63,959 nt of DNA from Synergistaceae bacterium (GTDB lineage Bacteria; Synergistota; Synergistia; Synergistales; Aminobacteriaceae): contig JAFSXR010000059.1 of the NCBI GenBank assembly GCA_017443985.1, positions 1 to 63,959 on the forward strand, written 5' to 3'. The first letter of the stretch is position 1. Each line of letters opens with the position of its first letter. The notes beneath the pieces were generated by a model. It was not told the origin of the DNA and made no database searches. It worked only from the letters and a program-made list of their open reading frames with translations. Positions 2,964 to 53,211 of the stretch are shown one piece after another. Position numbers and translations under genes: made by a program.

Positions 2964-3003
2964 TCGAAACAGTGATATAATTTTCACAGGAGTTAGGAGA
3001 AAA

Positions 3004-3040
3004 AATAATGAGGGGTCGAAATCGGCTCCTCATTATTTTT
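3004..3040 (+). terminator. Intrinsic terminator after the esterase gene
   Basis: A perfect 10-bp stem, AATAATGAGG (3004-3013) with CCTCATTATT (3028-3037), closes a 14-nt loop and runs into a T tract. The T tract is also the start of dispersed element copy B, so the two structures abut. Confidence 0.85.
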
Positions 3041-3155
3041 TGGGGGCTACAATGGGGACTACAGAAATCTTAAAATTTTTCAGCGTTCATAATTTTTTTA
3101 AGAGGCGCAAAAAAAAATAAACTCCAGAATTTTTTTTCGAGAATTTATTTTTTGG
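3038..3155 (+). repeat. GGGGACTACA dispersed element, copy B
   Basis: The copy starts TTTTGGGGGCTACAATGGGG, so the first unit has one A-to-G change, followed by ACTACA. It then continues with an AT-rich block containing TTAAAATTTTTCAGCGTTCAT and a homopolymeric A run. It lies between two convergent genes, so nothing downstream on this strand could use the TATAAT at 2976-2981. Other copies are near 10.3, 33.4, 44.0 and 53.1 kb. Confidence 0.75.
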
Positions 3156-5220: not shown

Positions 5221-7317
5221 ATGCAAAAAATTTTCAAAGTTCAAGAAGCCTACTCCGGCGACGCTATGAAAGGTCTTGCGCGTATTCACCCTGACGACAT
5301 GGCGGAGTTAAATTTAAGCGAAGGTGATTTAATCGAAATCACGGGACGAAAAACGACTCCGGCGAGGGTTCGTGCAGGAGACAGGGAAGTCGGGCGCAAT
5401 GTCATTCAAATTGACGGGCTTATAAGAGAAAACGCAGGGACTTCTCTCGATGAGATGATAAACGTTGAGAGCGCGGTTAATCATCATTTCGCAGGGAGCG
5501 CGACGATTCAGCCGCTTGGCGACGTAAAACTTACCGACAAAGAAAAAGACGAGAGTTATATTCTTTCCATGCTTGAGGGCCAAGCAGTGAGGACGGGCGA
5601 CAGAATACGGGTAAATTTTTTCGGGACTAGGGTCTGCGATTTTTCAGTCAACGCTACAACGCCCGAAGGCACTGTAATTTTTAACAAGTCAACTTATCTG
5701 AATATTCTCAAGCCCTCGAACGCTGAACACGTCCATAAAATTTCTTATGAGGACATCGGCGGATTAAGCTCGCAAATTAGAAAAGTCCGCGAAATGATAG
5801 AGCTGCCGTTAAGATTTCCGCAGATTTTTGAGAAGTTAGGGATACAGCCTCCGCGCGGCGTGCTTCTGTACGGACCTCCGGGCACCGGCAAAACAGTAAT
5901 AGCACGGGCGGTTGCCAATGAGACTGACGCATGGTTCACGCATATATCCGGGCCCGAGATAATCGGCAAATTTTACGGCGAGAGCGAAGAACGTCTGCGG
6001 AAAATTTTTGAGGAGGCTCAAGACCGTGCGCCTTCGATAATTTTTATTGACGAGATTGACGCGATCGCCCCTAAGCGCGAGGACATGGGCGGAGAAAAAC
6101 AGGTTGAGCGTCGAGTCGTTGCGCAGCTCTTGGCCCTGATGGACGGATTAAAATCACGCGGACAGTTAATTGTCATCGGTGCTACGAACATTCCTAATGC
6201 TCTTGATCCTGCTTTGAGGAGGCCGGGAAGATTCGACAGGGAAATTTCTATTCCTATTCCTGACAGAAAAGGACGCTTGGAAATTCTAAAAATTCATACT
6301 CGCGGAATGCCTTTGGCTAAAGACGTAGACTTGAAAAAAATTGCTGACCTCTCTCACGGTTATGTCGGGGCCGACCTCGAAGAGTTAGCTAAAGAAGCGG
6401 CAATGTCATGTGTCCGGTATATTCTGCCCTACGTAAATTTTCAAAGCCAGGAAATTCCCTACGAAAAAATTTCAAATTTAGAGGTCGGCATGAAACATTT
6501 TCTAAACGCCCTCTTAGAGACAGAGCCGTCCGCAACACGCGAGGTCTTCGTTGAAATTCCTGAAGCAACTTGGGAAGACGTTGGAGGGCTTGAAAATATC
6601 AAAGACGAATTAATGAACGCCGTTATGTGGCCGATGAGACGCTCTGAAATTTTTGAACGCTATGGTATTCAGGCAACACGCGGAATTTTACTGCACGGGG
6701 CTTCAGGGACGGGAAAGACTTTGCTCGTTAAGGCTCTGGCCCATGAAAGCGGAGTGAACTTTATAAACGTTCAAAGCGCGAATGTTCTTTCACGTTACTT
6801 GGGCGAATCCGAACGCACTCTAAAAAATATTTTTAGAATTGCAAAGCAGGCTGCGCCCTCGATAATATGCTTTGACGAGATTGAAAATTTATTCCCGGAA
6901 CGTTCAGAGGGAACGGGCTCACAGTTCGCTTCGACTGAAAGCAGACTGACGGGACAATTTACGGCGGAGATGCGCGGAATTGAAGAGCTTAACGGCGTTA
7001 CCGTCATAGCTACGACAAACCGGATTGATTTAATCGACAGGGCATTATTAAATTCGGGAGTGTTCGACTTAAAATTTGAGCTGCCTATGCCGGATACAAT
7101 GACACGCGAAAAAATTTTTGACATTCTCCTGCGCAAAAAGCCCCTCGATGAAAACGTGAATCTCTCAAAACTTGCGGACATGAGCGAAAATTTTACGGGC
7201 GGAGATATTTCTTTGATATGCCGCAGAGCTTCAATGGAGGCTTTGAAACGAGATGAAAATAATTTTTTGTTAAAGTTTATTGACTTTGAAAAAGCCTTTG
7301 AGATTATGAAAAAATGA
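5221..7317 (+). CDS. CDC48/VCP-like AAA ATPase with two ATPase domains
   Basis: This 698-residue protein is a CDC48/p97-type unfoldase, a family common in archaea and patchy in bacteria. Residues 1-80 form the double-psi barrel N domain (GLARIHPDDMAELNLSEGDLI), followed by a second N subdomain. D1 has GPPGTGKT (218-225), IIFIDEIDAI and RRPGRFDR (333-340, with the arginine-finger residues). D2 has Walker A GASGTGKT (493-500) and Walker B CFDEIE, but the expected RPGRFDR is replaced by NSGVFDL (near 611-617), so the arginine finger is lost. Both pore loops are present (KFYGESEE, SRYLGESE). It overlaps rluD by 4 bp, so the two are co-translated. The substrate and adaptor are unknown; bacteria lack the classical ubiquitin partners. 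Confidence 0.93.
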   Translation: MQKIFKVQEAYSGDAMKGLARIHPDDMAELNLSEGDLIEITGRKTTPARVRAGDREVGRNVIQIDGLIRENAGTSLDEMINVESAVNHHFAGSATIQPLGDVKLTDKEKDESYILSMLEGQAVRTGDRIRVNFFGTRVCDFSVNATTPEGTVIFNKSTYLNILKPSNAEHVHKISYEDIGGLSSQIRKVREMIELPLRFPQIFEKLGIQPPRGVLLYGPPGTGKTVIARAVANETDAWFTHISGPEIIGKFYGESEERLRKIFEEAQDRAPSIIFIDEIDAIAPKREDMGGEKQVERRVVAQLLALMDGLKSRGQLIVIGATNIPNALDPALRRPGRFDREISIPIPDRKGRLEILKIHTRGMPLAKDVDLKKIADLSHGYVGADLEELAKEAAMSCVRYILPYVNFQSQEIPYEKISNLEVGMKHFLNALLETEPSATREVFVEIPEATWEDVGGLENIKDELMNAVMWPMRRSEIFERYGIQATRGILLHGASGTGKTLLVKALAHESGVNFINVQSANVLSRYLGESERTLKNIFRIAKQAAPSIICFDEIENLFPERSEGTGSQFASTESRLTGQFTAEMRGIEELNGVTVIATTNRIDLIDRALLNSGVFDLKFELPMPDTMTREKIFDILLRKKPLDENVNLSKLADMSENFTGGDISLICRRASMEALKRDENNFLLKFIDFEKAFEIMKK

Positions 7318-10186: not shown

Positions 10187-10258
10187 GCAAAAAGATTTTC
10201 AAAAAATTAATGTTTGTTATATAATACTCAAAGAATAATTTTTTTCATGATAAAAATA

Positions 10259-10378
10259 TTTTTTGGGGACTACAATGGGTACTACAAAAACTTCAAAAAT
10301 TTTTGCTTGTCATAAAAATTCACAGAGCTGATAAAAAAAATAGAATCAAAAAATTTTCCGGGCCTCTTAAAAAATTTT
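10259..10378 (+). repeat. GGGGACTACA dispersed element, copy A
   Basis: The copy starts TTTTGGGGACTACAATGGGT, continues ACTACA, then TTCAAAAATTTTTGCTTGTCAT and ends in the AT-rich tail with TAGAATCAAAAAATTTT, which is shared with copy E. An upstream TATAAT lies at 10220-10225. A 22-codon frame opens with ATG at 10247 and ends with TAA at 10313-10315. Its first part, IFFGDYNGYYKNFKNF, is the frame conserved in the other copies. It occupies much of the 343-bp gap between two divergent genes. Confidence 0.75.
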
Positions 10379-10449
10379 GTAGGGCTTATAAAGTTTTATT
10401 GACACTTCAGCATGAAAGAAAATATAATTCTTAAATCAATAATAAAAAA

Positions 10450-11349
10450 ATGAACAACACAGAAATTTTAAGCAACCTTAGAACTTTAGGGCTTGATGCC
10501 GGAGCGACTGCCGATGACATTCACGCGGCTTTCAGAAAATTAGCAAGAGAGCTTCACCCGGACATAACAGGCTCAAGAAGCGATTATAGATTTAAGCAGA
10601 TAACGAGCGCGTATACTTTTTTGAAGAGTATCACGCCCGAAGAGCTTGACGCGCTAAATTCACAGACCGATAAAAATAAAAATATTTTTGATTATTACAG
10701 CGACAGAAAAAAATATAAAATAAATGACGAAAAAATTAACGCGATAATCGATAAATATGAAGCCGAGCTGAAATCTTTTTATCCCGGCCGGGCAGGGCTT
10801 GAAAATTTAGACATGGACGCTTTGATTTTGAGATTGAAGTCCGAAAATCCTAAAGTCATTAACGCGGCTTTGAAACATGCCGGGAATTTAGTCAACCGCG
10901 TAGAATTTCGCAGAGCCTTCGCCGCAGTTCTGAACAAAAAAGAAATTGATGAGGGACTCGCGGAAATTATAAACTCTCTGCCTTTTGAGGACGGCGCAAA
11001 AAAATTAATTGCACTCGATGCAGCGAACAACGCCGCAAATTTTCCGACAGGATTAATAACCGCGCTGATAGGCAACGAAGCTGACGCTGATGTCATGGAA
11101 AGTTTTTTAATGTATGTTAGGCCCGATGATGTTGCTGTGATTTTAAGACGCTGGCCGGAGAAAAAAATCATGAACGCCGGAGTTTTAAGAAAACTTTTAT
11201 CTTCTGACGATGCCAGAGTTTTAGTCCCGGTTCTGTCAGTAATGAAAAATAATTTTCCGAACTTGGCCGCGCAAAATAAAAAAAGGCTGAAAGAATTAGA
11301 AAATCATTCTGTTGCAGCTGTCAGAGCGTGGGCAAAGAAATGCAGTTAG
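10450..11349 (+). CDS. J-domain (DnaJ-like) protein with unknown helical C-terminal part
   Basis: This 299-residue protein has an N-terminal J domain at about residues 10-60, including FRKLARELHPDITG with the HPD triad that stimulates DnaK ATPase, and FKQITSAYTFLK as helix IV. There is no Gly/Phe region, zinc finger or DnaJ C-terminal domain, so it is a class C J-protein that would bring DnaK to one client. Residues 100-299 are helical and repetitive in feel (PKVINAALKHAGNLVNR, DARVLVPVLSVMKNNF, VAAVRAWAKKCS), possibly HEAT-like. No Shine-Dalgarno is obvious before the ATG. The TAG stop is the first unit of a TTAGGAA array. The client is unknown. Confidence 0.75.
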   Translation: MNNTEILSNLRTLGLDAGATADDIHAAFRKLARELHPDITGSRSDYRFKQITSAYTFLKSITPEELDALNSQTDKNKNIFDYYSDRKKYKINDEKINAIIDKYEAELKSFYPGRAGLENLDMDALILRLKSENPKVINAALKHAGNLVNRVEFRRAFAAVLNKKEIDEGLAEIINSLPFEDGAKKLIALDAANNAANFPTGLITALIGNEADADVMESFLMYVRPDDVAVILRRWPEKKIMNAGVLRKLLSSDDARVLVPVLSVMKNNFPNLAAQNKKRLKELENHSVAAVRAWAKKCS

Positions 11350-19654: not shown

Positions 19655-20392
19655 ATGGACGATAGAACCATGTTAAAAATTGAGAAGCTCAATGTAAGCT
19701 ACGGAGCTATTCAGGCGGTCCGGGACGTTTCAATTTCAATTAATCGCGGTGAAATAGTTACGTTAATCGGCGCGAACGGTGCAGGAAAGTCAAGCATAAT
19801 CCGCGCAATCATGGGCCTTGTTAAATCCCGTTCCGAAGAGATGACGTTCATATCGCCGCGAGATGGGAAGCCCGTATCGATACAGGGCAAACCTGCCGAA
19901 GCTCATGTTAAGTTAGGAATTTCGTTAAGCCCCGAAGGCCGTAGAATTTTGCCTCAATTAACGGTGGAAGAAAATTTGACGTTAGGCGCGTATATCCGCG
20001 ACGATGCTAAAGGAATTGCGGACGACATGGAATATGTTTACTCGCTCTTTCCGCGCTTGAAGGAACGCAGGAGGCAGAAAGGCAGCACGTTATCCGGCGG
20101 CGAGCAGCAGATGTTAGCGGTGGGGCGTGCGTTAATGAGCCGTCCTGATTTATTGATGCTTGACGAGCCGAGCTTGGGACTTGCGCCGATTTTAGTCGAT
20201 GAAGTTTTCGGGATAATCCGGGAAATAAACGCGCAGGGGCGAACGATTTTGCTTGTTGAGCAGAACGCCTTTGCGGCCTTGAAAGTTGCGCACAAAGCCT
20301 ATGTTCTTGAGGTTGGAGCTGTGGGACTTTCAGGGACGGGTGCGGAATTGTTAAACGATCCGAAAGTTAGAGCGGCGTACTTAGGCGGTTAA
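19655..20392 (+). CDS. livF: Branched-chain amino-acid ABC transporter ATPase LivF
   Basis: This 245-residue ATPase is the second nucleotide-binding subunit, pairing with the LivG half of the fused protein. Motifs are Walker A GANGAGKSS (about residue 40), Q-loop ISLSPEGRRILPQLTVEENL (LivF-type), signature LSGGEQQMLAVGRALM, Walker B LLMLDEPSLGLAP and H-loop LLVEQN. ATG follows the previous stop without a gap, so expression is coupled. It carries a slightly longer loop than usual after the Walker A helix (KSRSEEMTFISPRDGKPVS). End of the liv operon. Confidence 0.95.
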   Translation: MDDRTMLKIEKLNVSYGAIQAVRDVSISINRGEIVTLIGANGAGKSSIIRAIMGLVKSRSEEMTFISPRDGKPVSIQGKPAEAHVKLGISLSPEGRRILPQLTVEENLTLGAYIRDDAKGIADDMEYVYSLFPRLKERRRQKGSTLSGGEQQMLAVGRALMSRPDLLMLDEPSLGLAPILVDEVFGIIREINAQGRTILLVEQNAFAALKVAHKAYVLEVGAVGLSGTGAELLNDPKVRAAYLGG

Positions 20393-32797: not shown

Positions 32798-33064
32798 ATG
32801 AAAACTGTAGACAAGACAACCATAACAATAAAAACTGACAGAAAAATAAAAAATGCATTTGCTGATTTATGTGATGACATAGGGATTTCAATGACTGCTG
32901 TTTTGAACGCAATGATGAAACAAGCCGTGAGAAAGCAGGAAATAAAACTTTCAGCTCTCGACTTAAACGGTTTCACGCCGGCCGAAGCCGCAGAATTAAA
33001 AAGGCGCGTTCATGACGTTGAAGCCGGACGGGCAAAAATGTATTCGTTAATTGAAAAAAATTAA
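32798..33064 (+). CDS. RelB/DinJ-family antitoxin
   Basis: This 88-residue antitoxin has an N-terminal ribbon-helix-helix DNA-binding half (TTITIKTDRKIKNAFADLCDDIGISMTAVLNAMMKQAVR), characteristic of RelB/DinJ. The acidic/helical C terminus (EAAELKRRVHDVEAGRAKMYSLI) would wrap the toxin. It precedes the toxin and overlaps it by about 14 bp, the standard antitoxin-first order, and would also repress its own promoter. Different from the dead antitoxin at 27455-27691 in both halves. Confidence 0.9.
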   Translation: MKTVDKTTITIKTDRKIKNAFADLCDDIGISMTAVLNAMMKQAVRKQEIKLSALDLNGFTPAEAAELKRRVHDVEAGRAKMYSLIEKN

Positions 33065-33335
33065 ATTTATGCGCGGAATTTTTTGGCAGCCTGATGCTTG
33101 GGAAAGTTATAAGGCAATACAAAATCAAAAATCACTCCTTAAAAAAATTAATGACCTCATAAAAAATATTCAGCGAAACGGCTATAAATGCTCTATAGGA
33201 AAATTAGAAATGTTGAAGGGCGACCTTGCCGGTTATGCTAGCGTAAGAATAGATAAAAAAAACAGACTTGTTTTTCAAGTTGATGACTTTCAAGTAACTA
33301 TAATTGAGTGTTGCGGGCACTATAACGATCACTAA
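33051..33335 (+). CDS. yoeB: YoeB/Txe-family mRNA interferase toxin
   Basis: This toxin of about 94 residues cuts mRNA at the ribosome. FWQPDAWESYKAIQNQKSLLKKINDLIKNIQRNGY, then GKLEMLKGDLAGYASVRIDKKNRLVFQV and the terminal ECCGHYNDH fit YoeB: the RIDKKNRLV stretch and the final HY are catalytic-region residues. The frame opens with a TTG inside the antitoxin; an ATG at 33069 is an alternative start. YoeB normally pairs with YefM; here the partner is RelB/DinJ-like. The GGGGACTACA element copy C lies directly behind it on the opposite strand. Confidence 0.9.
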   Translation: MKKIKFMRGIFWQPDAWESYKAIQNQKSLLKKINDLIKNIQRNGYKCSIGKLEMLKGDLAGYASVRIDKKNRLVFQVDDFQVTIIECCGHYNDH

Positions 33336-33345
33336 AATTTTTTCC

Positions 33346-33466
33346 CTTAAAAAATTTAATCTCTCCGAAAAAAATTTATGACTCTAATTTTTTTTTCAGC
33401 CGCGTAAATTTTTATGGCCGCTAAAAATTTTTAACGTTCTTGTAGTCCCCATTGTAGTCCCCAAAA
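33346..33466 (-). repeat. GGGGACTACA dispersed element, copy C
   Basis: Reading the minus strand it starts GGGGACTACAATGGGGACTA and continues CAAGAACG, the cleanest double unit. It then has TTAAAAATTTTTAGCGGCCAT and a tail with AGAGTCATAAATTTTTTTCGG. TGCTATAAT, a perfect extended -10, stands at 33521-33529 on the same strand with no gene to drive before the convergent toxin. The gap between the toxin and recA holds nothing else. Confidence 0.75.
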
Positions 33467-33556
33467 TTTTTCTCTCCGGATTTTTTATAAGTCTCTGAAA
33501 TTTTTGAAAAGTTATTAAGAAATTATAGCACGAAAAAATATTTTTCCTCTATGCTG

Positions 33557-43941: not shown

Positions 43942-44006
43942 TCTTTATAGCAAAAAACACTTGTGATAAAATAATCTAAAACAATTCTAAAATTTTATAA
44001 GAAGAG

Positions 44007-44110
44007 TTTTTTGGGGACTACTTTGGGCACTACAAAGACATTAAAAATTTTTAGCTTCCATAAAATTTTACAACGATAATTTTTTTCATAGGTGTATAAA
44101 ATTTTTTCTG
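44007..44110 (+). repeat. GGGGACTACA dispersed element, copy D
   Basis: It starts TTTTTTGGGGACTACTTTGG followed by GCACTACA, with TTAAAAATTTTTAGCTTCCAT and a shorter AT-rich tail. An upstream TGTGATAAAAT may be its promoter. The reductase gene lies about 60 bp further on. Confidence 0.7.
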
Positions 44111-53011: not shown

Positions 53012-53137
53012 CGAAAAATTTTTTGAGAGGCTGAAAATTTTTTTGTGATTCTATTTTTTTCTTAAGCTCCGTAAAATTTTATGAGCGTTAAAAATTTTTG
53101 AAGTTCTTGTAGGTGTAAAAGTAGTTGCAAAAAAAAA
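53012..53137 (-). repeat. GGGGACTACA dispersed element, copy E (diverged)
   Basis: On the minus strand the double unit has drifted to GCAACTACTTTTACACCTAC, but the length, TTCAAAAATTTTTAACGCTCAT, and the tail with TAGAATCACAAAAAAATTTT are kept and match copy A. A perfect hairpin with T-run (terminator entry below) directly abuts its start, as in copy B. Confidence 0.65.
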
Positions 53138-53160
53138 TTCTCTCCTTCATCGAGAGAATT
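53128..53160 (-). terminator. Hairpin plus T-run directly before element copy E
   Basis: On the minus strand AATTCTCTC (53160-53152) and GAGAGAATT (53144-53136) form a perfect 9-bp stem with 7-nt loop, followed by nine T's. An extended -10, TGTTATAAT, lies only about 15-25 bp before it (near 53174-53182). Either a very short RNA is made, or the hairpin attenuates transcription towards the AGCS gene. Confidence 0.7.
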
Positions 53161-53211
53161 TACTTTCGGAAAATTATAACATGCTAAAATTATTATCGGG
53201 GTGATTTTTTT

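Follow-up and report, generated by a model that had tools for sequence, protein, structure and literature searches.

The window, the whole 63,959-nt stretch of Synergistaceae DNA that was analyzed, carries five copies of an intergenic repeat of about 200 bases, at positions 10259 to 10378 (copy A, plus strand), 3038 to 3155 (copy B, plus strand), 33346 to 33466 (copy C, minus strand), 44007 to 44110 (copy D, plus strand), and 53012 to 53137 (copy E, minus strand). No sixth copy was found across the window. Each repeat comprises, in order, an extended -10 sequence (TGnTATAAT), a leader of about 40 nt, a T-run, two units of NNNNNCTACA at a 12-bp period, and an AT-rich tail reaching to about +110. 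The tandem arrangement of the units agrees with a preliminary description of this DNA, and the two 10-bp units given there follow a strict period of 12 bp, with a constant gap of 7 between the two CTACA motifs. The -10-like hexamers of that description are likewise present and belong to a longer motif, TGnTAWAAT, ending 39 to 60 nt 5' of the word in the window copies. With up to three mismatches, the tandem 22-mer occurs four times in the window (copies A, B, C, and D) versus zero times in 100 shuffles. Other genes in the window include a Cdc48/VCP-like double AAA ATPase (5221 to 7317; domains CDC48_N and CDC48_2), of a type better known in archaea and eukaryotes, and, on the minus strand (43 to 1798), part of a type IV secretion/conjugation cluster, in which an ATPase matches Pfam T2SSE and a pair of small membrane proteins resemble VirB2/VirB3 by eye.

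Copy A has its extended -10 at 10217 to 10225 (TTATATAAT, 8 of 9 letters), its tandem units at 10265 to 10286 (GGGGACTACA/GGGTACTACA, period 12 bp), and its tail at 10287 to 10378 (AAAACTTCAAAAATTTTT...CATAAAAATTCACAGAGC...), all on the plus strand; its orthologue in the near-complete sister genome G019 is L038. Between this tail and the gene at 10450 lies a perfect consensus promoter (10399 to 10428; TTGACA, 18 nt, TATAAT), distinct from copy A's own -10. Copy B sits within a convergent gene pair, with its extended -10 at 2973 to 2981 (TGATATAAT), a terminator-like hairpin and T-run at 3000 to 3041 (-24.6 kcal/mol) into which the upstream gene (2019 to 2963) reads, tandem units at 3042 to 3063 (GGGGGCTACA/GGGGACTACA), and a tail at 3064 to 3155, again on the plus strand. 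Copy D, also on the plus strand, has its extended -10 at 43964 to 43972 (TGATAAAAT), its tandem units at 44013 to 44034 (GGGGACTACT/GGGCACTACA), and its tail at 44035 to 44110, with L055 as orthologue.

The remaining two copies lie on the minus strand. Copy C (extended -10 at 33522 to 33530, TGCTATAAT; orthologue L037) occupies the position upstream of recA, pointing away from recA, and has a perfect tandem at 33441 to 33462 (GGGGACTACAATGGGGACTACA) and a tail at 33346 to 33440. Directly beyond this tail is a RelB/YoeB-type toxin-antitoxin pair (Pfam; 32798 to 33335). This module was gained or lost beside the repeat, because about 610 bp at its place is absent from the orthologous G019 site (L009 versus L037). 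Copy E has its extended -10 at 53173 to 53181 (TGTTATAAT), a hairpin at 53136 to 53167 (-12.6 kcal/mol) that precedes the T-run, tandem units at 53108 to 53129 (TGCAACTACT/TACACCTACA), and a tail at 53012 to 53107. It had been reported with GGGGACTACA; the word there is instead TGCAACTACTTTTACACCTACA, from a dialect other than that of copies A to D, and the G019 copy L298 has the same words and the same leader.

Family size, distribution, and dialects

All genomes compared are MAG data; the window's own genome (G000) is 1.69 Mb and 75% complete. The GGGG form of the word, at up to three mismatches, occurs 33 times in G000 versus 0 times for the reversed pattern, confirming that copies are more numerous than expected by chance. 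The general pattern TTTNNNNACTACAWTNNNNACTACARAAA was found at 73 places in G000, 89 in G019, 58 in G013, 61 in G016, 69 in G025, and 93 in G036, and its reversed control at 0 or 1 in each of them. Once weaker matches are added, the G019 total is about 98 copies.

At least one match was found in 23 of the 43 genomes of the genus, and many genomes had zero. One clade of this rumen Synergistota genus has tens of copies in most species, and elsewhere there are essentially none; outside the genus, the same order has just four matches, each single and isolated. Across 84,980 species, scanned with one genome each, the element was confined to Synergistales, Synergistaceae, and Fretibacterium MAGs, bar two matches (Sphingobacterium and a Clostridia MAG) that were rejected as chance, the rest of the element being absent there. 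Carrier MAGs with a source stated in that scan came from ruminants. No tandem 12-mer of this kind was found in 120 kb each of G009, G030, and G031 or in 40 kb of G064, and 146 kb of the noncarrier G012 had none inside contigs and a single one, attributed to chance, where a contig ends. G012 is without the element although it stands next to the richest clade. The role of the element is not essential to the genus, because many species, including G012, are without it. On a RecA tree the carriers cluster, yet at least five state changes are required. A side observation from the recA searches is that G005 has two full-length recA-like matches (contigs C2 and C94), each about 81% identical to the window RecA, so that this genome has a second recA or its assembly is mixed.

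The variable NNNNN word differs across lineages ("dialects"), and GGGGACTACA is only one of several. The lineage words were GGGG; TGCA or TACC with TACACC; TTCA with TGCA; TGCC; GGTC; TACAGC; and TACTAA. The copy E words, TGCAACTACT and TACACCTACA, belong to a second group with identical architecture. All 33 GGGG copies of G000 have orthologous places in G019. Seven G013 elements have both flanks and orientation as in a G019 element and differ from it in their words, and within these seven pairs only L240/L062 are more alike than paralogues. Replacement of the word within a standing copy can thus be read firmly only once, from L240/L062, one element at one place with different words in two species; the six other pairs possibly reflect independent insertion at the same place.

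Predicted promoter, leader hairpin, and constraint

The -10 (at least 7 of 8 letters) was found in 85 of 88 G019 copies; the opposite strand had it in 17 of 88, and shuffled sequence in 12%. It occurs across all four gene arrangements in G019. In most copies of the element, 40 to 41 nt separate it from the word. These counts, together with the evolutionary constraint described below, answer the caution that such words are expected by chance when DNA is rich in A and T. Constrained and fixed in position, the sequence TGnTATAAT is that of a sigma-70-type promoter and is treated here as a predicted promoter. The gap between CTACA motifs was 7 in 382 of 382 loci (all those retrieved from three genomes, with G000/G019 orthologues counted twice), and a third unit was never seen.

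Many copies have a leader hairpin that ends in the T-run. Among 32 hairpins compared, covariation was clear: 94.9% of cells were paired, and 58 double-change cells were counted versus 16.8 in shuffled data, a figure that carries no probability since the paralogues are related. A compensatory stem followed by a T-run, as in an intrinsic terminator, was thus present. Strong hairpins in G019 were found in 24 of the 34 copies into which an upstream gene reads versus 7 of the 52 others (P = 1e-7), and G013 showed the same trend with upstream gene direction. Because its presence tracks that direction, the hairpin is best described as behaving like a dispensable terminator, retained mainly if the upstream gene reads in, and not as part of the element core. 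A structured RNA product, as suggested earlier, did not find support: compensatory changes were confined to the leader hairpin, which is dispensable, and no conserved fold of the tail was found. An Rfam scan of the window gave 0 matches, and no relation of the element to tRNA or tmRNA was found.

Substitutions were counted across 33 orthologous G000/G019 pairs, and the anticipated sequence constraint between copies was found. Changes affected 3 of 264 sites in the -10 letters (6 of 33 at the free N of TGnTATAAT), 2 of 165 in the T-run, 3 of 330 in CTACA, and 14 of 330 in the variable box letters, and there were 95 changes in 1,230 leader sites, 97 in 1,252 tail sites, and 308 in 4,506 flank sites. 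Divergence is thus about 1% in the -10 letters, T-run, and CTACA versus 7% around them (P from 2e-3 to 6e-7 against leader, tail, and flank), and indels are rare from the word to +60. By these counts, purifying selection acts on the -10, T-run, and CTACA but not on the sequence of the leader or tail. A further constrained-looking tail stretch lies at about +70 to +86 (AAAAATARATCnACGA in G013, AAAAAAATAGAATC in G019).

The preliminary description had proposed, from copies facing convergent genes, that the promoter is kept for the element itself, and the orthologous pairs bear this out. Where the next gene is opposed, the -10 changed at 2 of 112 sites versus 85 of 1,045 for leader plus tail, and CTACA changed at 0 of 140. 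Because the -10 holds constant even with an opposed gene next to it, the predicted promoter appears to serve the element and not the neighboring gene, and this context-independent constancy is the strongest evidence for that reading. Promoter letters and paired boxes that are conserved without a gene to drive are unlike the usual view of repeats as scattered insertions.

Chromosomal spacing and mobility

On the G019 contigs, 98 copies (weaker matches included) defined 83 gaps with a mean of 18.0 kb, a coefficient of variation (CV) of 0.44, and a minimum of 5.0 kb. Random placement gave a CV of 0.94 ± 0.09, with 0.67 the lowest among 5,000 simulations, and gaps of <5 kb made up 1.2% versus 25% expected, in a test that was prompted by the data and used simple nulls rather than real gene boundaries. 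Both dialects count as one spacing system, because either one taken alone is spaced like a randomly thinned version of the two combined (GGGG CV, 0.73; random labels, 0.74). In G016, G013, G008, and G065, 0 of 24 gaps were <8 kb versus 7.0 expected (P = 1e-4, with one 195-bp pair set aside), in a test that is independent of contig extent and took two-copy contigs among the matches listed; G016 alone with the 195-bp pair included gave a P value of 0.009. That pair, TACAGC-word copies at 19686 and 19881 of G016 contig C101, is the sole close pair among the gaps examined. The regular spacing favors either a role at chromosome scale or insertion at spaced sites over an ordinary small-RNA gene, and the even placement suggests a chromosome-wide marker rather than random junk.

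G013 contains a young subfamily of 13 to 15 copies of about 205 bp with 80 to 95% identity and sharp ends, AGTTTGTGATATAATA/AGTTTGTGATATAATAC at one end and TTTTTTGAACTT at the other. Imperfect inverted ends (AGTTYRWRA) were seen in this subfamily only, and no G013 copy was one ended or had an internal gene. Judged from this subfamily, the unit has multiplied within the G013 lineage, and copies still multiply there.

Searches for mobility genes gave no match to the tyrosine recombinase family PF00589 (Phage_integrase) in G019, a genome rated 100% complete, and the same search was positive in 14 of 14 control genomes. No PF00589 in G019 would mean no XerC/XerD, which would be unusual if real. 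The Y1 transposase family PF01797 had 0 matches in G000, G019, G013, G016, and G061, and its matches in other species do not track element presence. Phage and plasmid collections contained no match to the element, and viral contigs contained nothing or only chance matches in Thr-rich coding repeats. Two candidate identities were rejected: integrase arm-type sites, with the boxes absent near 20 integrase loci and no PF00589 in G019, and REP/RAYT, with PF01797 absent from five genomes, boxes that are direct repeats instead of palindromes with a GTAG-type foot, and a hairpin that is separate and dispensable.

Candidate roles of the element

The reading that we tentatively prefer, while holding it somewhat short of probable, is a vertically kept, transcribed site that would mark the chromosome at intervals and be bound by a putative factor. 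The approximately 100 intergenic repeats per genome would have spread in the past as a unit of about 200 bp and would now be inherited vertically, each copy acting as a working site by itself. RNA polymerase would start at the copy's own extended -10, about 33 nt before the T-run and the two boxes, and a putative trans-acting, lineage-specific factor would bind as a dimer to both boxes, arranged head to tail, either at the DNA level or in the nascent RNA. Such a factor and transcription at each site are proposed because the promoter and the strict-period boxes are constrained regardless of gene context. With copies at gene boundaries about 18 kb apart, their most likely role would be to mark or bound chromosome segments, for instance with the bound factor and the firing promoter holding supercoil or loop boundaries in place. 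The leader hairpin would be a spare terminator of transcription, retained chiefly if the upstream gene reads in. A fuller version, which we consider on balance unlikely, is a dedicated transcribed segmenting element with about 100 sites and segments of about 18 kb, in which shifts of factor specificity between species would pull all sites along. If the spacing is functional, the copies would be sequence-defined candidate boundaries of segments whose size has long been considered for supercoil domains, the barriers of which have not been identified (PMC6907758).

The main rival explanation, which would also account for the spacing, is a selfish element of the MITE type whose transposition shows target immunity, the transposase binding the boxes and shunning existing copies and the dialects being transposase specificities. 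This is possible, if somewhat unlikely. In Tn3, Tn7, and Mu, cis-immunity can have a long reach (PMC2837660), and the young G013 subfamily with its sharp and imperfect inverted ends, the existence of several families with different words, and the patchy presence on the RecA tree (at least five changes) all fit such an element. If the spacing reflects target immunity, it would be a clean natural record of the immunity range. However, about 98 copies stand in G019, where neither tyrosine recombinase nor Y1 transposase was found; one-ended or gene-carrying copies were not seen in G013; and phage and plasmid collections were without a match. Purifying selection on the -10, T-run, and CTACA of standing copies would be unexpected for a dead MITE, and the marker reading is preferred because dead insertions should lose the -10 and CTACA. 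Like bacterial MITEs, the repeat is an AT-rich, multicopy unit of about 200 bp, and in the young G013 copies its ends are inverted, if imperfectly; unlike MITEs, it has a promoter and boxes under purifying selection and copies fixed at orthologous sites, with PF00589 and PF01797 absent in G019.

The conserved promoter distance, fixed whatever the gene context, and the position of the boxes at about +33 of the predicted transcript would also suit a small-RNA gene family or RNA sponge whose boxes (UUUU-NNNNACUACAWUNNNNACUACA) would titrate or recruit an RNA-binding protein. That reading is distinctly unlikely, as the hairpin, if present, would stop the transcript 5' of the boxes, the fold of the tail is not conserved, the window is without an Rfam match, and regular spacing is not predicted. 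Self-recognition for DNA uptake of the DUS/USS kind would account for dispersed words that are intergenic, at terminators, and evenly spaced, as uptake sequences are according to Karlin as cited in PMC1939737, and the invariant CTACA core with lineage flanks recalls the Neisseriaceae DUS, with its CTG core and eight dialects (PMC3630211). We regard uptake as quite improbable, given about 100 copies rather than thousands and the constrained promoter, superfluous for uptake, within the 200-bp unit. An ordinary regulon, with the boxes as operators and the -10 driving the downstream gene, could draw on the 52 of 86 G019 copies that lie upstream of a codirectional gene, but the other 34 face a gene in the opposite direction and conserve the -10 equally, making it very improbable. 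Least credible is a coding role, as a short peptide or integrase tail (frame GTTMGTTKTSK...): the GGG ACT ACA frame is open in most copies, but substitutions per codon position (81/62/81) lack a third-position excess, the start codon is not conserved between dialects, and the boxes are absent near integrase genes.

Known systems resemble the element in part, and the literature cited here serves by analogy only. Geminivirus iterons are tandem, species-specific words with a promoter element on one side and a hairpin on the other. The present repeat likewise has tandem lineage words near a promoter and a hairpin, but it lies on a bacterial chromosome, without a replication gene or virus context. 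As in REP/BIME sequences, the repeats are short, dispersed, and intergenic at gene ends, with some hairpins and vertical inheritance, and BIME can impede supercoil diffusion (PMC6907758); unlike REP/BIME with RAYT, they have direct tandem boxes rather than palindromes, their own promoter, regular spacing, and no Y1 transposase (five genomes). An invariant core with lineage letters in many copies is shared with the Neisseriaceae DUS, which form terminator-associated inverted pairs (PMC3630211) and number thousands, whereas the element here has about 100 copies, a direct tandem, and a larger unit with a promoter. The TAACTGA repeats of Beggiatoaceae are also short direct repeats at numerous intergenic sites. 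These heptamers, proposed as posttranscriptional binding sites, form arrays of 2 to 43 copies beside start codons, with one word across phyla (PMC4679880), whereas the present element has exactly two units, a 12-bp period, a promoter, and dialects.

Under either the marker or the MITE-like reading, the dialects offer a handle for factor discovery. One of them contains a further match: GGACTACA, inside the GGGG dialect, is complementary to a conserved part of 16S rRNA, the one targeted by primer 806R. This complementarity is probably a coincidence, because the remaining dialects do not fit.
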